A stretch of 61,156 bases of DNA from Akkermansia muciniphila (GTDB lineage Bacteria > Verrucomicrobiota > Verrucomicrobiia > Verrucomicrobiales > Akkermansiaceae). The notes under the pieces were generated by a model that made no database searches, had not been told where the DNA came from, and saw only the letters and a program-made list of their open reading frames with translations. Position numbers and translations under genes: made by a program. Numbering within the stretch: position 1 is the first letter of the stretch; every line of letters begins with the position of its first letter. Below, piece by piece: positions 43,315-59,149 of the stretch. The stretch is taken from the NCBI GenBank assembly GCA_945879075.1, contig CAMCUY010000007.1, positions 1-61,156 on the forward strand, read 5' to 3'.

Positions 43315-43980
43315 TCAAGCGGGGCGGGCCGGGAAAAGTTGGAGCAACCGGGCAGCGACTTCACTCTCGGGAGCCGTCGCCTCGCAAGGAGAAAGAAGAC
43401 CCGCCTCCCGATAATACCCGATCACCGGCTGGGTGAGGCTCACAAACTCGGCATGACGGCTGCGGAAATTCTCCTCGCTGTCGTCGGCGCGCGGGCCTGC
43501 GGAACCACCGCAAACCGGACACTTGCCGTCATGGGTTAGCTGGTCGCGCTGGCCGGACCAGCGGCATTCCGGACACTCCACGCGCCGCTGGATGCGGGCG
43601 AGAAGCTGGTCGAACGGCACTTCCAAAGAAACCGCCGCGTCGAGTTTCAATCCGTGACGCGCCAGCCAGTCGTCGAGGAAAACCGCCTGTGGCAGGCTGC
43701 GGGGAAAGCCATCGAGCACCCAGCCGCCGGTCTGGCGTGAAAGCCAGTCGGCGAGAATCGGACACATCAAGTCGTCCGGCAAATATTCCCCGCGGGCGAG
43801 AATGGGCTCCGCTTGTTTTCCCAAGTCGGTCTCCATCTCCATCTGCTCGCGAAGCACGGCTCCGGTGCTGAGGTAGCCGAGGCCGAGACTCGCGGCGAGC
43901 CGCCGCCCTTGGGTGCCCTTACCGGAAGCCGGAGGCCCTAGCAGGACAACACGGAGCGGTTTGGCGGCGGAAGCGATCAA
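43315..43980 (-). CDS. adk: Adenylate kinase
   Basis: Equilibrates ATP+AMP with 2 ADP. 221 aa. P-loop GPPASGKGTQG near residue 15, LDGFPRS near residue 87 and a zinc-containing LID (CPECRWS...CPVCGGS, four Cys) are visible. There is no ATG: the first usable start is TTG 43980, which overlaps the secY stop as TTGA, a coupled reinitiation arrangement. Part of secY-adk-map. Confidence 0.93.
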   Translation of the reverse strand: MIASAAKPLRVVLLGPPASGKGTQGRRLAASLGLGYLSTGAVLREQMEMETDLGKQAEPILARGEYLPDDLMCPILADWLSRQTGGWVLDGFPRSLPQAVFLDDWLARHGLKLDAAVSLEVPFDQLLARIQRRVECPECRWSGQRDQLTHDGKCPVCGGSAGPRADDSEENFRSRHAEFVSLTQPVIGYYREAGLLSPCEATAPESEVAARLLQLFPARPA

Positions 43981-45485
43981 CGGCCGCTGTTGTAAAAATA
44001 AGCCGCACTTCCGATGACGATCAGGATGCCAATCACGGTCCACAGATAGACAATTGCCGTGCGGGGAGCCGCGCCGCTGGTCTGGCTGAGCCGGTCGTAG
44101 CGACCCTTGAGTTTTCCTTTGCGGAGGAATCCGTCATAGTGCTTCTGAAGGAGCTGGGTTTCGACCTGGCGCATCACGTCGAGCACCACGCCGACCATGA
44201 TCAACAGCGAGGTGCCGCCGAAGAACTGAAGGACGAGCGAGCTCGGAGGAAGACCGACGGCCTTGCCCGTTAGCACTGGCAGCACGAACAACCCGACCAT
44301 GAAAAACGCTCCGGCGAAGGTGAGGCGGGTCATGGTGAAGTCGAGGAAATCCGCAGTCGGCTTGCCGGGACGAATGCCGGGGATGTAGCCGCCATTGCGC
44401 TTGAGATCCTCGGCGATTTGCGAGGGCTGGAACATCATGGCCACCCAGAAATACGAGAAGAGGAAGATGCCGATACCGCCGAGAATATAGAACCACATAC
44501 CGCCTTCTGAAAGCTGGCCATAAAGCTTCACCGCCCATGGCTGGCCGGAGACTCCGGGAATCCATTGCAGCATCAGCGGCGGAAGCGACAGCACCGCGGA
44601 GGCGAAAATGATAGGCATGACCCCGGCATAGTTGACCTTGAGGGGCAGATATTGGGTCTGGCCGCCGAACTGTTTGCGCCCAACGACGCGCTTGGCGTAT
44701 TGCACGGCGATCCGGCGCTGGGCCTGGGTGATCGCGATGGTCGCGGCGATGACGACAAGCAGAAGGCCGATCATGACCACCATCCACATGGCTTTGAATG
44801 GTTCCACGGTTCCTTGGGAAGGCACGAAGTATTTCCATGCTTGGATCAACGCTCCTGGCAACGCGGAAATGATGTTGACCGTAATGATGATGGAAGTGCC
44901 GTTGCCGATTCCCTTTTCGGTGATCTGGTCACCGATCCACATCAGCAGAACCGTGCCCGCCACAATGGTGACGACCGTGAGGGCCATCCAAGTATAGGAA
45001 GGATCCGGAACCAGATTGCCAAATTTCTCGATCCCGCTCATGTAGGGGATGTTTTCGGGATTGGTTAGGGACTTCGCGACGAAGAACCCTTGGACGACGG
45101 CAATGCCGATGGTGATATAACGGGTGTATTGCGTGATCTTCTGGCGACCACCATCCTCACGGGCGAGGCGCGAAAGCTTCGGCACGACCGCGGTCATTAA
45201 CTGCACCATGATCGACGCCGAAATGTAGGGCATGATTCCCAGCGCCAAGATGCCGGCCTGTTGGAGGCCACCACCGGAGAACACTGTGAGCAAGGCGGTG
45301 ATGCCACCGCCTGAAGCCGGGTCCTGATTCTTCATGCTGTCCATCCACGCCTTGATGACGGTGGCATCGACACCCGGAAGCGTGATGTGCACACCCAGGC
45401 GGATGATGACGATCAGAGCGAGGGTGAAAAGAATCCGGTCCCGCAGTTCGGGGATTTTCCAAGTGTTGGTGAACGCAGAAATCAT
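43977..45485 (-). CDS. secY: Preprotein translocase subunit SecY
   Basis: Central channel of the Sec translocon in the inner membrane. 502 aa, ten transmembrane helices. LGIMPYISASIMVQLMTAVVP, GNGTSIIITVNIISALPG and QQPGY-region equivalent LKRNGGYIPGIRPGKPT are conserved. The protein is longer than E. coli SecY (443 aa), partly through an extended loop before helix 3 (ENIPYMSGIEKFGNLVPDPS). ATG 45485 gives MISAFTNTWKIPELR. Downstream adk is coupled by a 4-base overlap. Confidence 0.96.
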   Translation of the reverse strand: MISAFTNTWKIPELRDRILFTLALIVIIRLGVHITLPGVDATVIKAWMDSMKNQDPASGGGITALLTVFSGGGLQQAGILALGIMPYISASIMVQLMTAVVPKLSRLAREDGGRQKITQYTRYITIGIAVVQGFFVAKSLTNPENIPYMSGIEKFGNLVPDPSYTWMALTVVTIVAGTVLLMWIGDQITEKGIGNGTSIIITVNIISALPGALIQAWKYFVPSQGTVEPFKAMWMVVMIGLLLVVIAATIAITQAQRRIAVQYAKRVVGRKQFGGQTQYLPLKVNYAGVMPIIFASAVLSLPPLMLQWIPGVSGQPWAVKLYGQLSEGGMWFYILGGIGIFLFSYFWVAMMFQPSQIAEDLKRNGGYIPGIRPGKPTADFLDFTMTRLTFAGAFFMVGLFVLPVLTGKAVGLPPSSLVLQFFGGTSLLIMVGVVLDVMRQVETQLLQKHYDGFLRKGKLKGRYDRLSQTSGAAPRTAIVYLWTVIGILIVIGSAAYFYNSGR

Positions 45486-45523
45486 GGCTGAGTGGTGGGA
45501 AGAGTGGAGCTTGGCTATAAGCA

Positions 45524-45556
45524 CAATGAGGAAGCGCGGGATGCGCTTCCTCATTG
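45524..45556. promoter_or_regulatory. Perfect 14-bp hairpin between rplO and secY
   Basis: CAATGAGGAAGCGC (45524-45537) and GCGCTTCCTCATTG (45543-45556) form a 14-bp perfect inverted repeat with a 5-nt loop. There is no T-tract, so it is not a standard terminator. It could attenuate, be an RNase III site or set the rplO/secY expression ratio. Confidence 0.65.
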
Positions 45557-45580
45557 GAAATCAGAGATCAAATGAAGTAA

Positions 45581-46033
45581 TCAAGCAGTTGGCTCGGTAA
45601 CCGTGCCGCCCGCTTTTTCGATCTTTTCACGAGCGGAAGCACTGGCGTTGTTGACCACGAGGTGGAACGCCTTGGTGATTTCGCCCACGCCGAGAACCTT
45701 GATCTTGTCGTAAGTGCCGTTGACGAGACCTTGTCCCTTGAGGGCGGCTTCGTCGATGGTGGCACCCGCGTCAAACAGATCGTCGAGTTCGCCGACGTTG
45801 AAGACGCAGAACTTGTCGCGGAAATCGTAGTTGTTGAAGCCGCGCTTTGGGAGACGACGGTGAAGTGGCATCTGGCCGCCTTCGAAACCGACACGGGTGC
45901 CGGAACCGGAGCGGGCCTTCTGGCCCTTGTTGCCTTTGCCGGAAGTCTTGCCGTGGCCGGAGCTTTCGCCGCAACCGAGACGCTTGTTCCGGTGCTTGGA
46001 TCCCGGATTCGGGCTGAATGAATGAAGTTCCAT
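45581..46033 (-). CDS. rplO: 50S ribosomal protein L15
   Basis: 150 aa. The glycine/lysine-rich N-terminus (GCGESSGHGKTSGKGNKGQKARSG) and GFEGGQMPLHRRLPKRGF are the L15 signature; L15 assembles late into the 50S. Follows rpsE directly, without rpmD (L30) between them. A stable hairpin separates it from secY. Confidence 0.96.
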   Translation of the reverse strand: MELHSFSPNPGSKHRNKRLGCGESSGHGKTSGKGNKGQKARSGSGTRVGFEGGQMPLHRRLPKRGFNNYDFRDKFCVFNVGELDDLFDAGATIDEAALKGQGLVNGTYDKIKVLGVGEITKAFHLVVNNASASAREKIEKAGGTVTEPTA

Positions 46034-46043
46034 TGTTTTTGAA

Positions 46044-46108
46044 GAGTTATTTGTTAAAGATTATTAGTTAGAAGCGAAGAGCATTTGATTCCAAATAACA
46101 AATAACTC
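46044..46108. promoter_or_regulatory. AT-rich inverted repeat between rpsE and rplO
   Basis: GAGTTATTTGTT (46044-46055) and AACAAATAACTC (46097-46108) are perfect 12-bp reverse complements around a 41-base loop. This is the only markedly AT-rich spacer in the operon and stands exactly where rpmD would normally lie. It could be an RNA structure or a scar of gene loss. Confidence 0.5.
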
Positions 46109-46120
46109 CTAACGTTTAAC

Positions 46121-46810
46121 TCAGATAGCTTTTTCCCGCTTTTTCTTACCGCGTGCGCCGAGAACCTGGTCACGGGTGCGGAGCTGGGAGAGCGCCTTGA
46201 GCGTGGCTTTCACCACGTTGGCGTGATTGGAGGAACCCATCGATTTCGCGAGGATGTCGCGGATGCCGACGGCTTCGCAAACGGCGCGCACACCGCCACC
46301 GGCGATGATGCCCGTTCCCGGAGAGGCGGGCTTGAGGAGGACCTTGCCACCGCCGAACTCGGCGTAGATTTCGTGAGGGATGGTGCCATCGACGATGCTC
46401 ATCGAGACAAGCACCTTGCGGGCTCCTTCGCTGGCCTTTTTGATGGCGTCCGCCACTTCGTTCGCCTTGCCGTAGCCGAGTCCGACTTTGCCGAGCTTGT
46501 TGCCGGTGACGACAAGAGCGGAGAAGCTGAAACGGCGGCCGCCTTTGACGACCTTGGCGCAACGGTTGATGAAGACGACCTTTTCGGAAAGCTCGTTGCC
46601 TTCGGCATCGGTCGGAGCAGCGCGCTCTTCACGACGCGGACCGCCGCGACCGCGACCGCCCTGGCCGCCACCGCCTTGATAGCCACCGCCGCCACCGCCT
46701 TGGCCGCGGTTGCCTTGGTAGCCGGAGCCGGCGACAGGACCGATAGGCAATGCTGCCGGAGTTGCTGCTGCCGGAGTTGCCGGCGTTTCGTTTTCTGGAA
46801 TTGTTACCAT
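46121..46810 (-). CDS. rpsE: 30S ribosomal protein S5 with glycine-rich N-terminal extension
   Basis: 229 aa against about 165 in E. coli. Residues 1-65 are an extra disordered arm: a Pro/Ala start, then [34 protein letters not shown]. The core has [28 protein letters not shown] and the [22 protein letters not shown] signature. S5 helps form the mRNA entry channel and decoding fidelity site. The arm resembles RGG RNA-binding tails. ATG 46810; 21 bases after rplR. Confidence 0.95.
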
Positions 46811-46831
46811 GATGTGTGTCTGGTCAGAGCG

Positions 46832-47188
46832 TTAGAATTGGAGGCCGGCTTCACGCGCCGCGTCAGCGAGTGCTTTGACTTTACCGTGGTAGAGGTGGCC
46901 GCCGCGGTCGAAGACGACGGCGCTGATGTTCGAGCCCTTGGCGCGCTCCGCGAGGAGTGCTCCGACTTTCTGGGCGCTCTCGACATTCGAGGATGCCTTT
47001 TCGAAAGACTTGTCGAGCGTGGAGGCGGAGACCAGGGTCTTGCCGGCCGCGTCGTCGATGACTTGGGCGTAGATGTGTTGGTTCGAATAGTGAACGGCCA
47101 GACGTGGACGTTCGGCAGTGCCGGAAACCTTCCGGCGGATGCGGTTGTGGATCTTGCGACGGATCGACTTGCGATTGATAGTGCTCAT
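46832..47188 (-). CDS. rplR: 50S ribosomal protein L18
   Basis: 118 aa. Binds 5S rRNA with L5 and L25. Motifs [36 protein letters not shown] and the C-terminal [24 protein letters not shown] are typical. Between rplF and rpsE. Confidence 0.96.
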
Positions 47189-47229
47189 GGTGCCGTAAAT
47201 GTGTTGAGGTGGTGGGCGACGGTAATGGA

Positions 47230-47769
47230 TTATTTGCCGACGCTCTTGCCTTCCTTGCGGCGAACTTTCTCACCGACGTAGCGAACGCCCTTGCCCTTGT
47301 AAGGCTCGGGTGGATAGAAGCCGCGGACCTCGGCAGCGAACTGACCGACGAGCTGCTTGTCGATGCCCTCGACCTTGATCTTCGTGTTCTCGACGACCGT
47401 GACGTTGAGACCGGAAGGGATGGGGTGAAGCAGCGGGTGCGAACGACCCAGCGAGAGGTCGAGTTCCGAGCCCTTGACTGCGGCGCGGAGACCGACGCCG
47501 ATGATTTCAAGATCCTTCACGAAACCTTCCGACACGCCGACGATCATGTTCTGAACGAGGCTGCGGGCGGTGCCGTGGAGGGCGCGATGTTGACGAAGTT
47601 CGCTGGCGCGGGAGACGACGACGGTGCCGTCTTCGCTGGTGAGCGAGATGCCTTCGGGAAGCGGGAAGTCGAGTTTGCCCTTCGGGCCTTCGACGATCAC
47701 CGTGCGGCCGTCAAGTTTGACGGCGACCTTCGCGGGGACAGAGATTGGTTTGAGTCCGACTCGTGACAT
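47230..47769 (-). CDS. rplF: 50S ribosomal protein L6
   Basis: 179 aa, two repeated RNA-binding domains. [19 protein letters not shown] at the N-terminus and [26 protein letters not shown] at the C-terminus are diagnostic. Lies between rpsH and rplR. Confidence 0.97.
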
Positions 47770-47798
47770 GGTAGTATTTTCCTTTGACGAGTTAGGGT

Positions 47799-48194
47799 TT
47801 ACCAGACGTTGGCGAGGAGCTCGCCGCCGAGGTTTTGCTTCTTGGCGGAACCGCCGGACATGACGCCTTTCGAAGTGGAAAGGATCGAGATGCCGAGGCC
47901 GGACATGACGCGTGGAACTTCACCCGCGCCGACGTAGTGGCGGCGGCCGGGAGTGGAGACGCGCTTGAGGTCGGTGAGGACCGCGCGGCCGTCGATGAAC
48001 TTCGGCTTGGCTTTGAGCGTGGTGCGCTCGCCAGTGACGACTTCATAGTTCCAGAGGTAGCCTTCTTCCTGAAGAATGCGGGCGATGTCGGCCTTGATCT
48101 TGGAGTAAGGAGCGGAGAATTCCTCATTACCAGCGCGGGCGGCGTTTTTGAAACGCGTGAGGAAGTCGGAAATTGGATCGGTGAGAACTGCCAT
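47799..48194 (-). CDS. rpsH: 30S ribosomal protein S8
   Basis: 131 aa. TDPISDFLTRFKNA start and the C-terminal VPRVMSGLGISILSTSKGVMS signature. S8 is the translational repressor of spc operons in E. coli. Only 33 bases separate it from rplE, so rpsN (S14), normally here, is absent. Confidence 0.96.
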   Translation of the reverse strand: MAVLTDPISDFLTRFKNAARAGNEEFSAPYSKIKADIARILQEEGYLWNYEVVTGERTTLKAKPKFIDGRAVLTDLKRVSTPGRRHYVGAGEVPRVMSGLGISILSTSKGVMSGGSAKKQNLGGELLANVW

Positions 48195-48227
48195 AATAGG
48201 ATTCCTTTTAAAGTGTGGGTCCGGTGT

Positions 48228-48812
48228 TTAGTTGGCAGCGACGGGCTCGAGCTCGTTGGCCTTTTTCATGTCGCGGAAAGGCAGGCCAAGCTCCATGAGC
48301 AGGGCGCGGCCTTCGGCGTCGGTCGGTGCGGAGGTCACGAAGATCAGGTCGAAGCCGATAGTGCGCTTGATCTGGTCGATTTCGATTTCCGGGAAGATGG
48401 ATTGATCACTGATGCCGCAGGCGTAGTTGCCGCGACCGTCAAACGACTTCGAGGAAATCCCGCGGAAGTCGCGGATGTTCGGAGCGGTGACGTTGATGAA
48501 ACGATGAAGGAATTCCCACATGCGCGGGCCACGGAGGGTGACGCGGGCGCCGAGGGCTTCTCCTTCGCGGAGCTTGAAGTTGGCGACGGCCTTCTTCGAG
48601 AACGTGATGGACGGGCGCTGGCCGGTGATCTTTTGGATCTCGTTGACGGCGTCGTCAACGGCGACCTTGCGGTCCGCTGCCTTGCCCATGCAAGAAGTGA
48701 CCACGATCTTTTCAAGACGTGGAACCTGATGGAGGTTGGTGTATCCCTGGCTCTTCTTGAGAGCGGGGACGACCTTGTCCTTGTAGTGTTGTTGTAGTGC
48801 TGATGTGCTCAT
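48228..48812 (-). CDS. rplE: 50S ribosomal protein L5
   Basis: 194 aa 5S rRNA-binding protein of the central protuberance. QVPRLEKIVVTSCMG and the RDFRGISSKSFDGRGNY and GFDLIFVTSAPTDAEGRALL stretches are typical. Slightly extended C-terminus (RDMKKANELEPVAAN). Confidence 0.96.
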   Translation of the reverse strand: MSTSALQQHYKDKVVPALKKSQGYTNLHQVPRLEKIVVTSCMGKAADRKVAVDDAVNEIQKITGQRPSITFSKKAVANFKLREGEALGARVTLRGPRMWEFLHRFINVTAPNIRDFRGISSKSFDGRGNYACGISDQSIFPEIEIDQIKRTIGFDLIFVTSAPTDAEGRALLMELGLPFRDMKKANELEPVAAN

Positions 48813-48871
48813 TTTTTTGCGGGTCAGCGCTGATTGCTCAGGCGCTTAAGCGCGGGCGGAAGCGGAATGCT

Positions 48872-49102
48872 TCAGCCCACTTTTTTGACGTTGGAGATAT
48901 GGATCGGGCCGTCGATGGTCTTGAGACCGCCGGAGTCGGCTTCGGTGGCTTTGGTCGCCTTGATGATCGGGCGACCACCTTCGACGGTGACCTTGCCCTT
49001 GGCGGCGTTCACAAGCAGCACGGTGCCGCGCTTGCCTTTGTGATTGCCTGCGATGATTTCGACTTGATCGCCTTTTTTGACGTGGGTCTTGATGCGGCTC
49101 AT
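48872..49102 (-). CDS. rplX: 50S ribosomal protein L24
   Basis: 76 aa, short version (E. coli 104). A KOW motif is clear: [21 protein letters not shown]. The usual C-terminal beta segment is trimmed to [11 protein letters not shown]24 initiates 50S assembly. Between rplN and rplE. Confidence 0.94.
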
Positions 49103-49136
49103 GAAATTGGAATGATTGAGGAGTTGAGGCCGAGGT

Positions 49137-49502
49137 TCAGAGAACTTCGGGTGCGAGAGATACGATTTTCATGAACGCGCGCTCGCGGAGTTCACGGGCG
49201 ACGGGTCCGAAGATCCGGGTGCCGCGCGGGTTGTTGTCCTTGTCGATGATGACGACCGCGTTGGAGTCAAAGCGAAGGATCGAACCGTCGGCGCGGCGGA
49301 TCGGATAGGCGGTGCGGACGACCACGGCCTTGACGACGCTGCCCTTTTTGACGGCGGCGGTCGGGATCGAGTCGCGGATGTGGCAGGTGATCACGTCACC
49401 GATGCAAGCGGTGCGGCTGCGCTTGCCGAGCACGCCGATCATTTTTGCGCTGCGCGCGCCGGTGTTGTCGGCGACGACGAGCATTGTTTCCATCTGGATC
49501 AT
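49137..49502 (-). CDS. rplN: 50S ribosomal protein L14
   Basis: 121 aa. [20 protein letters not shown] and the [16 protein letters not shown] motif are diagnostic. It bridges the subunits near the S12/16S interface and is a binding site for RsfS. Between rpsQ and rplX. Confidence 0.97.
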
Positions 49503-49548
49503 GACAATAAATTGGGTAAAAGCTGAAAAACGGGGAAGCTGAAATGGA

Positions 49549-49818
49549 TTAGTGCGAGATGACTTCGGCGAGCGTCCAGCACTTCAGTTTCGAAAGCGGG
49601 CGGGTCTCGACGATGCGGACGCGGTCGCCGATCTGGCCTTGGTTGCTCTCGTCATGCACGTAGTATTTCTTGGAGCGCTTGACGATCTTGTTGAATTTCG
49701 GATGGGGAACACGGGCGACGTGTTCGACGACGAGGGTCTTGTCCATTTTGTTGGAAATGACCACGCCGACGCGTGTTTTACGGAGGTGGACTTGTGCGTC
49801 CGAAGGAGACTCGCTCAT
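49549..49818 (-). CDS. rpsQ: 30S ribosomal protein S17
   Basis: 89 aa OB-fold protein. [42 protein letters not shown] matches the family signature (GD-V-I-E-RP-SK-K). Primary 16S-binding protein. Confidence 0.96.
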
Positions 49819-49842
49819 GGTAAGAATAGGTTGGAACTTGGA

Positions 49843-50037
49843 TTAGGCGAGCGACTTGGCGGTAACCGCCGTGAGCACTTGCGCGGTTTCGCGACGCACC
49901 TGGCGGATGCGGGCGGGATTTTCCAAAGTGCCGGTGGCGCGTTGGAGACGAAGGTTGAGAGCTTCCTGTTTAAGCTCCCGGAGACGAACCTGAAGTTCGG
50001 CGGGAGTAAGCTCGCTGGTGGTTTTGGCTTTGGCCAT
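49843..50037 (-). CDS. rpmC: 50S ribosomal protein L29
   Basis: 64 aa two-helix protein at the tunnel exit, partner of trigger factor and SRP. ELTPAELQVRLRELKQEALNLRLQ and the IRQVRRETAQVLTAV helix match the family. Confidence 0.94.
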   Translation of the reverse strand: MAKAKTTSELTPAELQVRLRELKQEALNLRLQRATGTLENPARIRQVRRETAQVLTAVTAKSLA

Positions 50038-50073
50038 GGTTCAGACGGATGTTGGATGGTTTGATCGAACGGA

Positions 50074-50493
50074 TCAGGCGTGCGGATTGCGGGCGACGAG
50101 GCGGGTGCGGATGCCGAGCTTGTAGGATGCGAGACGCATGGCCTCCTTTGCTGCGGATTCAGGAACACCACCGATTTCGAAAAGCATGTTGCCCGGACGG
50201 ATGACGGCCACCCAACCTTCAACAGCGCCTTTACCTTTACCCATCCGTGTTTCAGGAGGACGCGAGGTGATCGACTTGTGCGGGAAAATCCGGATCCAGA
50301 CTTTTCCTTTCCGCTTGAGGGAACGGTTGATAGCGATCCGGCAGGCTTCGATCTGGCGGTTGGTCATCCATCCGCGGTCGAGGGTTTGCAGACCGAAGTC
50401 ACCGAAGGCGACAGTGGTTCCGCGCTGGGCATTACCGGAGCGGCTTCCGCGGTGGCTTTTGCGGAACTTGGTTCGTTTGGGCATCAAAGGCAT
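50074..50493 (-). CDS. rplP: 50S ribosomal protein L16
   Basis: 139 aa. [16 protein letters not shown], the [21 protein letters not shown] stretch and [19 protein letters not shown] are diagnostic. It contacts the A-site tRNA elbow and is essential for peptidyl transfer geometry. Confidence 0.96.
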
Positions 50494-50543
50494 AACTCGG
50501 TCCTTCTATGAAAAGTGTTGTTTGGGAATTGAGAGGTTAAATA

Positions 50544-51293
50544 TCAGTTGCGTGGATTCGGGCGACGATCGCCTCCGCGATCTCCACCACCGTTGCCACG
50601 GCGGTCACCACCGCGGTCACCGCGATCGCCGCGGTCGTTGCGACCTTGAGGTTGCTTGCCGGTGCCATCGTCTTCCTTCTTGTTGACCCAGCACTTGATG
50701 CCGATGATGCCATACAAGGTGCGGGCTTCGGCAAAGCCGTAGTCGAGAGGAACACGGAGAGTTTGGAGAGGCACTTTGCCTTCGCGGTAGCCTTCAGCAC
50801 GGGCGATGTCGGCACCGCCGAGGCGGCCGGCACAACGGAGACGGATGCCTTCGGCACCGAATTCCATGGCGGTTTGCAGCGCGCGTTTCATGGCGCGGCG
50901 GAACGAAATCCGGCGCTCAAGTTGCACAGCGATTTGCTCGGCGACCAATTGTGCATCCAGCTCGGGCTTGCGGATTTCGATGATGTCGATCTTGACCTGG
51001 GCACCTTTGCAGAGGTCGCCGATCTCCTTGGTCATCACTTCGATTTCCTTGCCTTGCCGACCGATGATCAGGCCTGGGCGTGAGGTGTGAAGAGTGACGC
51101 GAACGCTGTTCCATGCACGCTCGATGACCACACGGGCCAAACCAGCATTCACGAGCTTGTTCTTCAGGTAGCCACGGATCGCGAGATCTTCGTGGAGCTT
51201 ATCGGTGTAGTCTTTGCCTTTGGCATACCACTTGGAGCGCCAGTCCTTGTTGACGGCGAGGCGGAATGCGATCGGATTTACTTTTTGGCCCAT
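50544..51293 (-). CDS. rpsC: 30S ribosomal protein S3 with arginine/glycine-rich C-terminus
   Basis: 249 aa. The KH domain (GRQGKEIEVMTKEIGDL) and GIRLRCAGRLGGADIARAEGYREGKVPLQTLR are canonical. After the usual end (GIIGIKCWVNKKEDD) a tail of about 35 residues follows, made of R, G, D and N (GRNDRGDRGDRGG, NGGGDRGGDRRP). S3 with S4 and S5 forms the mRNA entry channel, so this tail lies beside the S5 arm. Translation start ATG 51293. Confidence 0.95.
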   Translation of the reverse strand: MGQKVNPIAFRLAVNKDWRSKWYAKGKDYTDKLHEDLAIRGYLKNKLVNAGLARVVIERAWNSVRVTLHTSRPGLIIGRQGKEIEVMTKEIGDLCKGAQVKIDIIEIRKPELDAQLVAEQIAVQLERRISFRRAMKRALQTAMEFGAEGIRLRCAGRLGGADIARAEGYREGKVPLQTLRVPLDYGFAEARTLYGIIGIKCWVNKKEDDGTGKQPQGRNDRGDRGDRGGDRRGNGGGDRGGDRRPNPRN

Positions 51294-51326
51294 GGTCGGT
51301 GAGGGATGAGATTAAATGAGAGGATT

Positions 51327-51749
51327 TCAGGCTTCTTCAGTTGCAGCGGCTGCAACGGGAGCTTCTTCGGTTTTTTTGGCAGCGGCCTTGCGGGCGACCT
51401 TCTTTTTCTTCTCGGGAGCGGAGCCGACGAGAGTGATGGAGATGTGGCTGGTGCGCTTGAGGATAGGACCGGCAGAACCCTTGGCGCGCGGCTTGAAGCG
51501 GCGAAGCGTCGGACCGGCGCCGATAACGGCTTCCTTGATCACCAGCGTCGAGGCATCGAGCGAGAAATTGTTTTCGGCATCCGCGATGGCGGTCTTGAGC
51601 GTCTTGCCAATCAGCTGTGCGGCTTTTTTGGGAGTGAAGGTCAGGATATCAAGGGCGCTCGACACGGCGAGGCCTTGAATTTCGCGGGCGACGTCACGCG
51701 CCTTTTTAGGCGAGAGGCGAACGAATTTAGTGGTGCTTTTGACTTCCAT
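51327..51749 (-). CDS. rplV: 50S ribosomal protein L22
   Basis: 140 aa. TTKFVRLSPKKARDVAREIQG and RRFKPRAKGSAGPILKRTSHISI are the L22 signatures; the beta-hairpin loop reaches into the exit tunnel. A K/A/E-rich C-terminal extension (KKKKVARKAAAKKTEEAPV...) adds about 25 residues. Preceded by the exported coiled-coil gene instead of rpsS. Confidence 0.95.
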   Translation of the reverse strand: MEVKSTTKFVRLSPKKARDVAREIQGLAVSSALDILTFTPKKAAQLIGKTLKTAIADAENNFSLDASTLVIKEAVIGAGPTLRRFKPRAKGSAGPILKRTSHISITLVGSAPEKKKKVARKAAAKKTEEAPVAAAATEEA

Positions 51750-51769
51750 GGAACGTCGGACGTGAGTGG

Positions 51770-52495
51770 TTACTGCGCGGATGCTTGTGTTTCGAGAACG
51801 GCGAGGTCGCCGGGGCGTGGGGATTCGGCGACGTTGTCGAGGTGATCGACAAAGGCGCCACTGACGCCCTTGCGGACGTCAGCGAGAATGGCGTTACCGT
51901 AGGGCTGTTGCCCGCGGGTGAGGCGAAAGGTCATGCCGATTTTAGCGCCTTGGCTTTCGCCAAGATTCAAAACCATCATGCCACTTTCTTGATCGAGACT
52001 GACAATCCGAGCCTGCTGCAATGAGCCGGTCCGAATGTCGGGGCGGGGCTTCTGGCGCAGTCCGAGGACAGCGTCAAGCTCTCTTAGTGAAGTTTCTACA
52101 CGAAGTCTTGCATCCGGATCGGAAACCACCGCCAGGCGGAGGTAATCATTGACCGCGGCGGAAAGACGTGTGACGGAATTTTCAAGATTGGTGGTGCGCT
52201 CGCTTGCGAGTTGCAAGTCGGCGGCAGCCTGGACGAGGCGATCGTCCCCTCCGTCAAGCAGGTTCTTGCCGAGTGCTTCGAGACGCTCGCGGACCTGGGC
52301 CAATTGGCCGGACGCTTGCTTCTCGCCGCTGTTAGCCTCGGCGAGGCTGCGCTGGAGGGAGCGGTTCTGCTCTTGGAGATCGACGATGATTTCCTGAAGC
52401 TCCCCGGCGTTTGGCGCCTGGCCCGCACACATCCCTGCAAGGGCCAGCGACCCAAAGGTGGCGGCAAATGCTTGGAGATGAAAGGTGGAACGCAT
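51770..52495 (-). CDS. Exported coiled-coil protein inside the S10 operon
   Basis: 241 aa, no named family. A signal peptide (residues 1-25, LQAFAATFGSLALAGMCAGQA) is followed by a long coiled coil (about 28-140, DLQEQNRSLQRSLAEANSG, QVRERLEALGKNL, TTNLENSVTRLSAAV), then a small beta-rich domain (165-235, VSLDQESGMMVLNLGESQGAKIGMTF...GDLAVLET). The C-terminal domain resembles FlgT- or MreC-like beta units that sit under coiled coils in the periplasm. It lies 26 bases after rpsS and 20 before rplV with no terminator or promoter seen, so it must be co-transcribed with ribosomal proteins. Function unknown. Confidence 0.75.
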   Translation of the reverse strand: MRSTFHLQAFAATFGSLALAGMCAGQAPNAGELQEIIVDLQEQNRSLQRSLAEANSGEKQASGQLAQVRERLEALGKNLLDGGDDRLVQAAADLQLASERTTNLENSVTRLSAAVNDYLRLAVVSDPDARLRVETSLRELDAVLGLRQKPRPDIRTGSLQQARIVSLDQESGMMVLNLGESQGAKIGMTFRLTRGQQPYGNAILADVRKGVSGAFVDHLDNVAESPRPGDLAVLETQASAQ

Positions 52496-52521
52496 GGACG
52501 CGGGGAATGAACCTGGTTGAA

Positions 52522-52794
52522 TTATTTCTTACCGATGCCGCCGTGGGTCTTGAAGATCCGGGTCGGGGAAAATTCGCCGAGTTTGTGGCCAACCATGTTT
52601 TCGGTCACGTAAACGGGAACGAAGGTCTTGCCGTTGTGAACGGCGAAGTTGTGGCTGACGAAATCCGGCGTGATCATCGACTTGCGGCTCCATGTCTTGA
52701 TGGGCTTGCGGTCGGATCCGGCTTCGGCGACGGCGTCGATCTTGGCGAGAAGCTTTTGATCGACGTATGGGCCTTTTTTGAGTGAGCGTGGCAT
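52522..52794 (-). CDS. rpsS: 30S ribosomal protein S19
   Basis: 90 aa. [61 protein letters not shown] contains the S19 signature. Contacts S13 in the 30S head. The normal neighbour rplV is displaced by the exported coiled-coil gene. Confidence 0.96.
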
Positions 52795-52829
52795 GAAATC
52801 AGTGAGTTGGATGGTTCGCTAAAAGTGGA

Positions 52830-53675
52830 TTACTTCTTCTTCGCTTTGTGACGGGACTCGACGATGAAGACGCTGGTGGTCTTGCGCTTGTTACGAGTCT
52901 TCTGCCCCTTCGCGTGGCCCCATGGGCTGGTAAGGTGCTGGCGACCACCACCGGACTTCGACTTGCCTTCGCCACCACCGTTCGGGTGGTCAACTGGGTT
53001 CATCGTCATGCCGCGGACGGTCGGGCGAACGCCCTGCCAGCGGGTGCGGCCGGCTTTGCCCGAGGTCTCGTTCATGTGGTCGCGATTTCCGACTTGGCCG
53101 ATCGTGCAGAAGCAGCGGTCGTTGAAGCGGCGGATTTCACCGGAAGGCATTTTCACGAGCGCCCAGCCGCCATCGCGGTTAGAAAGCACGGCGAGCTGTC
53201 CGGCGGCGCGGGCGACTTTGCCACCGTTGCCAGGGATGAGCTCGATGTTGTGGATTGAGGTGCCGAGCGGCACGGCGCTGAGTGGCATCGCGTTGCCGGT
53301 TTTAGGAGCGACGTTGGCACCGGCGACGACGGTGGTTCCGACTTCCAGGCCGAGTGGGGCGAGGATGTAGGACTTCTGGCCGTCTTCATACTGGATGAGC
53401 GCGATGCGGCAGGTGCGGTTCGGATCGTATTCGATGCCGACGACGGTTGCGGGTGCATCGTGCTTGCCACGACGGAAGTCGATCAGACGATAGTGGCGCT
53501 TGTGGCCACCGCCGATGTGACGGGTGGTGATGCGACCAGTGTTGTTACGGCCGCCGCTGCGCTTGAGAGGCGTGAGAAGACTCTTCTCAGGCTTGCTCTT
53601 GGTGATCTCGTCGAAGGACGGGAGTTGCTTGTAGCGAGCGGACGGGGTGATTGGCTTGAAAGTTTTCAGGGGCAT
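52830..53675 (-). CDS. rplB: 50S ribosomal protein L2
   Basis: 281 aa. The conserved peptidyl-transferase-centre segment [19 protein letters not shown] is intact (including the invariant His), and [22 protein letters not shown] is typical. Between rplW and rpsS. Confidence 0.97.
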
Positions 53676-53722
53676 GACAATCGGAACGTTAAAGTGTTAC
53701 GTTTGGGGCTGCGGTATATCGC

Positions 53723-54007
53723 TTAGACGAGATCAAGCGATTCGCCTTCCTTGAGGCGGACGATGGCTTTTTTCCAGTGGTTGGTGCGACCGGCGTCGGC
53801 ACGACGCTGGCGCTTGAGTTTGCCGTCGTAATTGGCAGTGCGGACTGCCAGAACGGTTTTTCCGAAGAGTTGTTCCACGGCCTGCTTGATTTCAAGCTTG
53901 TTGGCCTTGCGGTCCACTTCGAGGGTGACCTCGTTGTTATTCTCCTGAAGCATGGTGGCTTTCTCGGAGAGGCGGACGTTTTTAATGACCTGGTAAATGT
54001 CTTTCAT
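53723..54007 (-). CDS. rplW: 50S ribosomal protein L23
   Basis: 94 aa. VIKNVRLSEKATMLQENN and TLEVDRKANKLEIKQAVEQLFGKTVLAVRT match the family. Docking site for trigger factor and SRP beside L29 at the exit tunnel. Confidence 0.95.
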   Translation of the reverse strand: MKDIYQVIKNVRLSEKATMLQENNNEVTLEVDRKANKLEIKQAVEQLFGKTVLAVRTANYDGKLKRQRRADAGRTNHWKKAIVRLKEGESLDLV

Positions 54008-54030
54008 GATCTCGGTGTTAGGTCCGGGGT

Positions 54031-54639
54031 TCAGGCGGTGCGAGCCGCGAGGGTTTGAACGGCATCACCCACGAGGATGATGGTGTTGGCGAGGAGGAGT
54101 TGCTCGACGTTGACATCCGAACCCGTGACGAGTTGGGCGTAAGCGACGTTGCGGGCGGCGAGGTAGGTCGAGTCGTCGAAGGAATTTCCGACCACGAGGA
54201 TCTTGCCGAGAGGTGCGATGGCATCGAGAGCGGCCACGAAGGACTTGGTCTTGCCATCGGCGACGGAGAACGATGGCAGGGTCAAAACCTTGCCGGCGCT
54301 GACGAGGTCACCCAAGGTGCGGCGAAGAGCGAGCTTGCGGACGGTCTTCGGGACCTTCTTGGAATAGTCGCGAGGGCGTGGTCCGAAGACAACACCACCA
54401 CCGACGAAGATCGGAGCGCGCTTGTCGCCGTGACGGGCACCACCGGTGCCTTTTTGTTTGTAGATCTTGCGGTTGCTGCCGGAGACCTCGCCCCGGGTCT
54501 TGGTGCAAGCGGAGCCGGTGCGGCGGTTGGCGCGATAGGCGACCACGAGATCGTGGACGGCTTGGCGACCTTTCTCAGCACCTACCAACACGAGGTTGGC
54601 GGCTTGAGCGTCTTCTGCGGTGAAAGTCTTAGCGGACAT
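54031..54639 (-). CDS. rplD: 50S ribosomal protein L4
   Basis: 202 aa. The tunnel loop is visible in TRGEVSGSNRKIYKQKGTGGARHGDKRAPIFVGGGVVFGPRPRDY, with KKVPKTVRKLALRRTLG after it. In E. coli L4 represses the S10 operon; whether this holds here is not known. Confidence 0.96.
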   Translation of the reverse strand: MSAKTFTAEDAQAANLVLVGAEKGRQAVHDLVVAYRANRRTGSACTKTRGEVSGSNRKIYKQKGTGGARHGDKRAPIFVGGGVVFGPRPRDYSKKVPKTVRKLALRRTLGDLVSAGKVLTLPSFSVADGKTKSFVAALDAIAPLGKILVVGNSFDDSTYLAARNVAYAQLVTGSDVNVEQLLLANTIILVGDAVQTLAARTA

Positions 54640-54677
54640 GACTGGGAATCGTGAGAGGTTTCAAAAATGCCACCGGA

Positions 54678-55313
54678 TCAGGCGGACTTCTTCTTGGCTG
54701 GGCGGACGGTGACGTAGTTGCCGTTGGAACCGGGAACCGCACCAGAGACGAGGATCACGCCGTCTTCTTTGCGAACGGCGACGATCTTGAGATTTTGCAC
54801 GGTGGCACGGGTGGTTCCCATGTGACCGGGCATCTTTTGGTTTTTCCAAACACGACCCGGGGTCGAGCGGCAACCGATGGCGCCAGTCCGGCGGTGCATC
54901 ATGGAGCCGTGAGTCATCTTCAAACCACCGAATCCGTGGCGCTTGACCGCACCTTGGAAACCGCGGCCCTTGGATTCGCCGATCACGTCAACCCACTGGC
55001 CTTCCGTGAAGGTGTCGAGACCCGGATGAACTGCTGGAAGCTCAACGCCGTTTTCGACGCGGAATTCCTGGATGAAACGCTTGGGTGCGCAACCTGCCTT
55101 CTTGGCGATGCCGAGAGCGGGCTTGCTGGCGCGTTGTTCCTTTTGATCGCTGTAGCCGACTTGGACCGCGGTGTAACCGTCGGTTTCAGGGGTCTTCGAT
55201 TGGAGAATCGTGTTACCGGAAACGTCGATAACCGTAACAGGGATCATGATACCGGCCTGTTGGTCGAACAGGCGGGTCATACCGATTTTTTTGCCGAGGA
55301 GGCCGAGTGACAT
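54678..55313 (-). CDS. rplC: 50S ribosomal protein L3
   Basis: 211 aa. LGLLGKKIGMTRLFDQQAG at the N-terminus and the signature VKRHGFGGLKMTHGSMMHRRTGAIGCRSTPGRVWKNQKMPGHMG are diagnostic. Nucleates 50S assembly near the sarcin-ricin loop. Confidence 0.97.
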   Translation of the reverse strand: MSLGLLGKKIGMTRLFDQQAGIMIPVTVIDVSGNTILQSKTPETDGYTAVQVGYSDQKEQRASKPALGIAKKAGCAPKRFIQEFRVENGVELPAVHPGLDTFTEGQWVDVIGESKGRGFQGAVKRHGFGGLKMTHGSMMHRRTGAIGCRSTPGRVWKNQKMPGHMGTTRATVQNLKIVAVRKEDGVILVSGAVPGSNGNYVTVRPAKKKSA

Positions 55314-55363
55314 GGGAAGAATAGAGTTAAAAGTTAAAAGTGATACGTTCCTGAATAGCTCTG

Positions 55364-55672
55364 TCAGATACGGATGGTGATATCGACACCGGCCGGGAGG
55401 TTGAGCTTCTTGAGCTCGTCCACGGTGCGGGCGGTTGGATCGACGATGTCGAGAAGGCGCTTGTGAGTGCGGATTTCGAACTGCTCCATCGACTTTTTGT
55501 TCACGTGAACCGAGCGGTTGACCGTGAACTTTTCAATACGGGTCGGAAGCGGGATCGGGCCGGCGACACGGGCTCCCGTGCGTTTTGCGGTCTCCACGAT
55601 TTCTTGGGCGGAACGGTCGATGGCGCGATGGTCGAAGGCGCGCAGGCGGATGCGGATTTTCTGATTTTCCAT
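55364..55672 (-). CDS. rpsJ: 30S ribosomal protein S10
   Basis: 102 aa. [41 protein letters not shown] and the loop [19 protein letters not shown] are diagnostic. The loop is also the NusB/NusE contact. It opens the S10 section, 60 bases after fusA, with no tuf between them. Confidence 0.97.
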
Positions 55673-55731
55673 GGTGGAGAAGTTGTTTGACGGTTTACGT
55701 GGTTGGCTACAGGGCGAGTAATCAGGATCAG

Positions 55732-57873
55732 TTAGCCGATACGGTCACTGACGATTTCTTCGACGATATTGGTTGGGACTTGCTCGAAGTGCGATGGAGT
55801 CATCGCATACGAAGCACGCCCCGAGGAGAGGGTGCGGACGGCGGTGGAGTAGCCGAACATTTCTTTGAGAGGGACATTGGCATGCACGATGGAGAGCTTG
55901 CCTTTGGACTCGGTGTTCTGGATCTGTCCGCGGCGGCGGCTCAGATCGCCCATGACATCACCTTGGTAATCGTCAGGGGTGGAAACTTCCACGGCCATGA
56001 TCGGCTCGAGGAGGATGGACTTGGCTTTCTTGAAGCCGTCCTTCATGGCGAAAATGGCCGCCATGGTGAAAGCATTTTCGTTGGAATCAACGTCGTGGTA
56101 GGAACCGTCGAGGATTTCAACATGCACATCGATGACGGGATAACCGGCGACGATGCCGTTGGTCATCGACTCGTTGATGCCTTTGTAAACCGCATTGATG
56201 TATTCCTTCGGGATCGTGCCACCGATCACTTTGTTCTCGATGGTGAGTCCTTTGCCTTTTTCGTTAGGCTTTACGGAGAGAATGACGTGGCCGTATTGGC
56301 CGCGGCCGCCGGATTGCTTGATCAGCTTGCCTTCGCCGCCAGCGGCTTGGGTAATGGTCTCGCGGTAGGCGATTTGAGGAGCGCCGGTGTTCGCCTCGAC
56401 TTTGAACTCGCGGCGGATGCGGTCGATGATGATCTCCAAGTGAAGCTCACCCATGCCGGAAATGATCGTCTGGCCGGTTTCCTCGTCGGTCTTGACCATG
56501 AAGGTCGGATCCTCTTCGGAGAGACGGCCGAGTGCCATGCCCAGTTTTTCCTGGTCGGCTTTGGTGCGGGGTTCGACGGCCATCGAGATGACCGGTTCCG
56601 GGAAAGTCGGGGGCTCGAGAACCACGTCGTGGTTTTCGGCGGCGAGCGTGTCGCCGGTGGTGACATTCTTGATGCCGACCATGGCGGCGATGTCGCCGGA
56701 GTAGCAGGCGTCGATGTCCTTGTGCTCGTTCGCCTGGATTTGAATCAAGCGGCCGACGCGCTCAGAGCGGCGGGTGCGGGGATTGTAAACCGTGTCACCC
56801 TTGCGGATGACGCCGGAATAGACGCGGAAGAAAACCAGTTTGCCAACGAACTTGTCGGCCCAGAGTTTGAATGCGAGGGAAACGAACTTTTCGTTATCCG
56901 AGGTGACGACTTCGATGTGTTTCTCGTGGTCGTCGGGGTCCATACCAATCGCCGCAGGAATGTCGAGCGGGCTTGGGAGGTAGTCGATCACCGCATCAAG
57001 CAGATACTGGACACCTTTGTTTTTAAAAGCGGAACCACCGGCGACGGGCACCAGCAGGTTGTTGATCGTAGCGCGGCGGATGCCCTGCTTGAGCTCTTCG
57101 AGAGTGATCGGCTCTTCGTTGAGGAATTTTTCGCCTACGGCCTCGTCCACGTCGGCGACGGCGTTGACGAGTTCGTCGTGAGCCTGTTTGCAGAGATCGA
57201 TGAGATTGCCTTCAAGTTCCGTCACCGTGTAGGTGGAGCCGAACTTGTCGTCGTCGGAGTAATAGATCGCCTTCTGGTTGACCACGTCGATCTGGCCGAT
57301 CAACTGGTCTTCGGAACCGATCGGGATCAGGATGCGAACGGCATTCGCGCCTAACTTTTCCTTCACCTCGTCGAACACACTTTGGAAATCAGCGCCGGTG
57401 CGGTCCATCTTGTTGACGAACACGATCCGCGGAACGTGGTATTTCGAAGCTTGCCGCCAGACGGTTTCGGTTTGCGGCTGGACGCCGGCGACACCGCAGA
57501 AAACCACGATGCAACCATCAAGCACGCGAAGGGACCGCTCAACTTCAGCAGTGAAGTCAACGTGTCCCGGAGTATCAATGATGTTGATGCGATTCTTTTC
57601 GCCTGGGAAAAGCTTGGTCATCCCCTCTTCCTCATGCTGCCACCACTCGGTGGTGACGGCGGCGGAAGTGATCGTGATGCCACGCTCGCGCTCTTGCTCC
57701 ATCCAGTCGGTCGTCGCGCCACCATCGTGGACTTCGCCGATTTTGTGAATCATCCCTGTATAGAACAGGATCCGCTCGGTGAGGGTCGTCTTGCCCGCGT
57801 CAATGTGCGCGGCGATCCCGATATTTCGGGTGCGCTCGAGCACGTATTGGCGGTTTGGACTATTCGGATTCAC
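55732..57873 (-). CDS. fusA: Elongation factor G
   Basis: Translocation GTPase, 713 aa. G1 AHIDAGKTT (residues 22-30), switch [10 protein letters not shown] and NKMDR are present, followed by domains II-V. The C-terminal [18 protein letters not shown] is typical. I chose GTG 57873, giving [20 protein letters not shown], which resembles other verrucomicrobial EF-G N-termini; GTG 57843 would be shorter. Long loops ([28 protein letters not shown] region) are family variants. 32 bases after rpsG. Confidence 0.96.
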
Positions 57874-57904
57874 GGACGGAAATTGCTGGAGCGCGTATCG
57901 GGAA

Positions 57905-58378
57905 TTAGAAGCGGAAGTGAGCGAAGGCGCGGTTGGCTTGCGCCATCTTGTGCACGTCGTCGCGTTTGCGGACGGCACTGCCTTGGTTGTTCGCGGCGTC
58001 TTTGATTTCGTTGGCGAGAGCGACGTGCATCGGAGTGCCCTTGCGGTTGCGGGCGTAGTTGACAAGCCAGCGCATGGAAAGCGACTCGGAACGATCTGCA
58101 GCCACTTCGAGCGGCACTTGATAGGTGGCACCACCGACGCGGCGGGATTTCACTTCCACGCGTGGTTTGGTGTTTTCAACGGCGCGGGTGATCACTTCGA
58201 GAGGATCGATCGTATCCACGCCTTCATTGGCGCGGTCGATTGCGGCGTAAACGATGCGCTGGGCGAGCGAGCGTTTTCCAGATTCCATCACCTTGGTAAT
58301 AAGGTGACCAACGAGAGCGCTGTCGTAGCGAGGATCGCGACGGTCGGGCTTGGTGAAGATGCGCTTGCGGCGTGGCAT
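57905..58378 (-). CDS. rpsG: 30S ribosomal protein S7
   Basis: 157 aa. [30 protein letters not shown] and [18 protein letters not shown] are diagnostic. It nucleates 3' domain assembly of 16S rRNA and regulates str operons in E. coli. Between rpsL and fusA. Confidence 0.97.
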
Positions 58379-59074: not shown

Positions 59075-59149
59075 TGGTGGCAGCGGGCGGATTCGAACCG
59101 CCGACCAAGGGCTTATGAGTCCCCTACTCTACCGCTGAGCTACGCTGCC
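59075..59149 (-). tRNA. tRNA with anticodon CAT (Met or Ile2)
   Basis: 75-nt cloverleaf: acceptor GGCAGCG/CGCTGCC, D-arm TAGCTCAGCGGTAGAGTA, anticodon loop CTCATAA, T-loop GTTCGAATC, discriminator A and encoded CCA. CAT can be elongator Met or, if C34 is modified to lysidine, Ile2. The anticodon loop suits Met, while GACTCATAA and TTGGTCG after the stem also occur in tRNA-Ile2, so identity is open. It is not the initiator (no C1-A72 type mismatch, no GGG/CCC anticodon stem). Confidence 0.9.

Follow-up and report, generated by a model that had tools for sequence, protein, structure and literature searches.

The analysed window, a 61,156-nucleotide contig from Akkermansia muciniphila (CAMCUY010000007.1), carried an open reading frame with an ATG start and a coding capacity of 241 amino acids, here called gene X, within its str-S10-spc ribosomal gene cluster (Table 1). 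As the initial annotation had stated, the ORF and its coordinates placed X between the rpsS and rplV genes; 26 nt separated the rpsS stop codon from X and 20 nt separated X from the rplV start. Non-ribosomal genes within the S10 operon are uncommon. A search against Rfam identified no RNA elements near X, and its sole match near the ribosomal cluster was a tRNA gene at positions 59078-59149 on the minus strand.

Table 1. Coordinates, strand and supporting evidence for gene X, its parts and its neighbours in the window.
Feature	Coordinates	Strand	Evidence
Gene X, very probably exported protein (predicted helices 30-144 and beta barrel 161-234)	51770..52495	-	ORF, homologues, fixed position, model, purifying selection
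Probable signal peptide, residues 1-29	52409..52495	-	Hydrophobic N-terminus, no lipobox; fastest-evolving part
Helical, probably coiled-coil region, residues 30-155; missing in the short lineage	52031..52408	-	AlphaFold2 helices
C-terminal FlgT_C/MreC-like six-strand barrel (predicted), residues 156-241; constant core of the family	51773..52030	-	Model, FlgT top match, weak Pfam FlgT_C match in 11 of 70 members
rpsS (S19), neighbour upstream of X	52522..52794	-	ORF and tblastn anchor
rplV (L22), neighbour downstream of X; conserved gene-order partner	51327..51749	-	ORF and tblastn anchor
str-S10-spc ribosomal cluster around X, with secY-like and adk-like ORFs	43315..58378	-	ORF lists

In agreement with the earlier observation that no terminator was visible, a pattern scan found neither terminator-like nor promoter-like sites on the minus strand at X; this result is weak evidence, since the number of matches equalled that obtained with shuffled sequence. 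A promoter scan 5' of X in one genome with a split operon gave no useful signal. No clear Shine-Dalgarno motif was found ahead of X or ahead of its ribosomal neighbours. The codon adaptation value was 0.46 for X versus 0.64-0.72 for the ribosomal genes, an ambiguous comparison because some of the ORFs used were of uncertain frame. Judged from the short spacers and the conserved gene order, it is likely that X is co-transcribed and co-expressed with the ribosomal genes.

X is a real gene. Among twelve congeners the median dN/dS was about 0.17 by the Nei-Gojobori method, with some pairs close to saturation, compared to 0.03-0.07 for the ribosomal neighbours, a result indicative of purifying selection. 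The signal region evolved fastest (0.33), and the values for the stalk (0.15) and the barrel (0.17) were similar. A homologue was present in 137 of the 145 genomes of the window's family, the Akkermansiaceae, and in every near-complete one (110/110, representing 16/16 genera). These dN/dS values and this conservation ruled out a chance ORF. At the level of the class, a single-sequence search gave matches in 154 of 285 near-complete genomes, a few of which were paralogues.

Gene order was conserved well beyond the window. The rpsS and rplV genes flanked the X-bearing slot in 126 of 133 loci that had been chosen by protein match alone; of the other seven loci, L084 carried a copy of X that had escaped from this site and the six loci L127-L132 held paralogues. 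A profile built from the barrels of the class matched the ORF upstream of rplV in loci from other lineages, with E values between 1e-23 and 3e-6, whereas the background lay above E 2. For the survey of the phylum Verrucomicrobiota, the rpsS gene, the rplV gene and the barrel domain were each located separately in a single set of 145 genomes, after which their coordinates were compared. Among the 126 genomes with rplV that lay outside the window's family, X was directly upstream of rplV on the same strand in at least 62 genomes and at least 29 of 42 families, fractions that are descriptive only, as the genomes are non-independent and the families unequal in size. The median distance from the end of the barrel domain to rplV was 40 nt, and in the phylum loci that were read directly the X stop codon mostly lay 2-20 nt ahead of rplV.

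The rpsS gene was also linked in 30 of these 62 genomes; in the remaining 32 it was located elsewhere and X was still found with rplV, which shows that the X-rplV pair outlasts the break in the operon. Many of these 32 split assemblies are drafts. In five genomes (G387, G438, G459, G464 and G473), both parts were far apart on one closed or long contig, and both sites were read (L149-L153, L168-L172). Across the sample, rpsS and rplV were unlinked in 52 genomes (families f62, f67, f68, f72, f73, f78, f80, f84, f85, f87, f88 and f91), so that the S10 operon is broken in a large share of the phylum; where X is present there, it heads the rplV half.

A slot without X was observed in 13 of the 42 sampled families, among the matches listed, a count in which weak copies missed at the profile cut-off of E 0.001 may be included. 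The rpsS-rplV gap in the linked genomes that lacked X was 25-241 nt, or 338 nt in one 0.9-Mb genome; in this sample the slot therefore carries either X or nothing of its size. Two reduced genomes of 0.9 Mb (G168 and G160; L165, L166) were without X, and a 2.5-Mb congener (G214; L108) had it.

A maximum-likelihood tree was inferred from 107 barrels and 85 columns, in which many forks remained open. One branch, with support of 100/98, separated all 75 of the 75 rplV-linked copies, together with eight copies from genus g153 and the escaped copy L084, from 23 paralogues, and the window barrel grouped with the rplV-linked copies. This split fits a single family inherited at the rplV site. The initial annotation had considered that homologues might be scattered at random sites in relatives; the opposite was found, namely one orthologous family fixed at rplV with few escapes. 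The position, orthology and domain make-up of the rplV-linked copies are well supported, and the fixed gene order and the tree rule out a recent or random insertion. We propose that X was already beside rplV in the ancestor common to most of the sampled Verrucomicrobiota lineages and was inherited there. In genus g153, X had moved away from rplV in eight sampled genomes. In four of these eight (L179, L181, L183 and L184) a gene for an RND efflux pump lay immediately upstream of it.

The N-terminus of the window protein is compatible with a Sec signal peptide and has no lipobox, and a hydrophobic N-terminal stretch was present in 120 of 124 homologues. The product is very probably exported, in keeping with the signal peptide that had been noted earlier. 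An AlphaFold2 model based on 70 homologues (pLDDT 86.7) predicted helices at residues 8-20, 30-76, 84-121 and 127-144, followed by a six-strand beta barrel at residues 161-234 (pLDDT about 95-98), the latter corresponding to the small C-terminal beta domain of the initial annotation. That annotation had also described a long coiled coil. The helices were recovered in the model and the hydrophobic periodicity of helix 30-76 exceeded that of shuffled sequences (p = 0.002), but the value for helix 84-121 was suggestive only (p = 0.09); a coiled-coil stalk is therefore likely but unproven. Seven barrel positions were near-invariant (G179, G187, M188, R194, R208, G229 and D230).

A short form of X, of 111-130 amino acids, was found in families f9, f33, f41, f44 and part of f12 (for example L154-L159, L161, L163 and L164). 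It consisted of the hydrophobic N-terminus and the barrel without the stalk, and when modelled independently it gave the same strand pattern, with a barrel pLDDT of about 95-98. Since this lineage dropped the stalk, the constant core of the family is the probable signal peptide and the barrel, and any oligomerisation through the stalk must be dispensable there.

Structural comparison gave the C-terminal region of FlgT as the best match, with Z scores of 11.0 and 10.4 for the long form and 11.6 and 10.9 for the short form, and Foldseek matched FlgT with E values of 3.5e-5 and 5e-4. The N-terminal barrels of the F1-ATPase scored 9.5 and 10.5, and MreC scored 9.1. Because unrelated barrels came within about one Z unit of FlgT, the fold alone is not diagnostic and says little about function. 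FlgT_C was also the most common Pfam match to the barrel, although it was weak (11 of 70 members, best E 6.2e-5) and the window protein itself had no match to this model (PF16538). Matches of the whole protein to Pfam and NCBIfam models (Phage_scaffold, ZapB, SMC and similar) were rejected as coiled-coil noise that pointed to no consistent family, and a whole-length profile search of the PDB likewise returned mostly such noise, TsaP aside.

FlgT is part of the flagellar H ring of Vibrio (PMC7693769). Its C-terminal domain (PDB 3w1e, 8z5n) is an exported six-strand barrel and gave the best structural match to the predicted barrel of X, but FlgT has N-terminal and middle domains where X has a helical stalk. 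The flagellar P ring protein FlgI was detected in only 14 of the 145 genomes of the phylum sample, and the window's own genome and nearly all of the X-bearing genomes were without it. A general role for X as a component of the H ring was rejected on these counts.

TsaP was the only solved protein that matched the barrel profile below E 0.05 (E = 0.0012), and it was eighth in the Foldseek list. This protein binds peptidoglycan and is located with the PilQ secretin (PMC7545093), and X might act in the same way, with its barrel docked on the secretin ring of a type IV pilus or type II system. Every sampled genome with an rplV-linked X had a secretin, and the four secretin-less genomes, all of family f8, also lacked X at the slot. 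However, this co-occurrence has almost no power, because 141 of the 145 genomes carry a secretin, and many secretin-positive families (f63, f69, f70 and others) are without X. TsaP (PDB 3jc8) has an exported barrel of the FlgT_C type, to which the predicted barrel of X is similar, but combines it with a LysM domain in place of the helical stalk; no LysM domain was found in the window protein or among the most common Pfam matches of the 70 members. We consider a secretin-associated role for X unlikely.

MreC is a component of the elongasome. X is predicted to have the same order of parts, namely a hydrophobic N-terminal helix, a coil and a barrel, and besides the structural match given above MreC appeared in the Foldseek list (E = 0.006) and its model gave weak matches in a few members. 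An MreC-like X could accordingly aid cell-wall elongation and be produced in step with growth. All 15 sampled genomes of genus g3 (for example G028, G038 and G119) had X and no MreC match. By contrast, 128 of the 145 genomes encode MreC, most of the X-bearing genomes have a separate MreC, X has one barrel rather than the two of MreC, its gene neighbourhood is different and the short lineage has no stalk at all. The window protein had no match to the MreC model (PF04085), and the proposal that X is itself the MreC of the window genome was rejected, since that genome has its own at G000:C2:47412-47864. An elongasome factor is improbable on this balance, if marginally less so than the secretin-associated role.

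The known barrels of this kind, in FlgT, TsaP and MreC, are parts of rings or scaffolds in the periplasm, and by this analogy, which is not proof, X may be a scaffold or adaptor of the cell envelope. After export through Sec, X would be located in the periplasm; its helical, probably coiled-coil stalk would allow it to oligomerise, and the barrel of the FlgT_C/MreC type would dock onto a larger envelope assembly. If X is transcribed and translated with the ribosomal proteins of the S10 operon, its amount should track the growth capacity of the cell, and this growth-coupled dosage could be what has kept X beside rplV. We tentatively favour this reading, a periplasmic scaffold or adaptor whose co-expression with the S10 operon couples it meaningfully to growth, over any other single explanation, while rating it at somewhat under an even chance. 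The link between X and envelope growth is plausible; it is weakened by the slots without X and by the relocation in one genus. Since X is absent from the slot in the 13 families and in the 0.9-Mb genomes and has moved in genus g153, ribosome-linked dosage is not obligatory.

Nearly as likely as the dosage-coupled scaffold is that X is a positional hitchhiker, which entered the S10 operon once, early, and has stayed because rearrangements of ribosomal operons are rarely tolerated. In that case the link in expression would be meaningless and X would have an unrelated job in the periplasm. A single origin and vertical inheritance, as seen in the tree, are enough to produce the observed pattern. 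X is able to leave, as it has in the eight g153 genomes and in one family member, and many lineages have a slot without it. These same events show that clean loss and relocation are possible, yet most lineages hold X at rplV, even past the operon break in 32 genomes. This retention can still be explained by hitchhiking, because a single ancient break would suffice.

A connection between X and Sec-dependent export, which the initial annotation had raised on account of the shared operon, was not borne out. X could in principle tune or serve export along with SecY, and the window's ribosomal cluster does include a secY-like ORF. The secY gene, however, belongs to the S10-region cluster in most bacteria, whether X is present or not; no Sec-type domain was found in X with Pfam or NCBIfam, and nothing else links X to SecY. 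This explanation is very improbable, far more so than the secretin and elongasome roles. A bolder form of the coupling is that the signal peptide of X, on being translated midway along the S10 transcript, draws the ribosomal protein mRNA to the inner membrane, or that the dosage of X sets an envelope capacity proportional to ribosome synthesis. We regard this proposal as a long shot, on a par with the secretin-associated role; if it were true, in either form, ribosome production would be hard-wired to the cell envelope across the phylum.

The X family lacks a model in both Pfam and NCBIfam, and no published description of X was found in the literature searched; a limited search of a 2012 paper on PVC signatures likewise gave nothing on X. 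As far as these databases and this literature go, the family appears to be undescribed. It is unusual for a gene with a probably exported product to be kept at rplV across most of the sampled families, even past a break in the operon. Verrucomicrobiota have canonical peptidoglycan, and working genetics are available in Verrucomicrobium spinosum (PMC12283558). If the dosage coupling is true, X would give a simple genetic means of studying how the growth of the envelope is matched to the synthesis of ribosomes. Even as a hitchhiker, the rplV-linked X would be a useful marker of the phylum and would point to an unstudied family of envelope proteins.

The paralogues separated from X in the tree were of a 'WNFVVL' type. 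Like X, these Verrucomicrobiota proteins have an N-terminal hydrophobic helix, a long coil and a C-terminal barrel; unlike X, they are encoded at other sites, have a barrel of the WNFVVL type and form a separate clade. One tandem pair of such paralogues was located in the window's own genome (G000:C16:18735-19816; L175 and L176), and the tandem was kept as a pair in other genera (also L189 and L190). A further paralogue with the same layout adjoined an ORF resembling glucose-6-phosphate isomerase, pgi (L128, L129 and L131).
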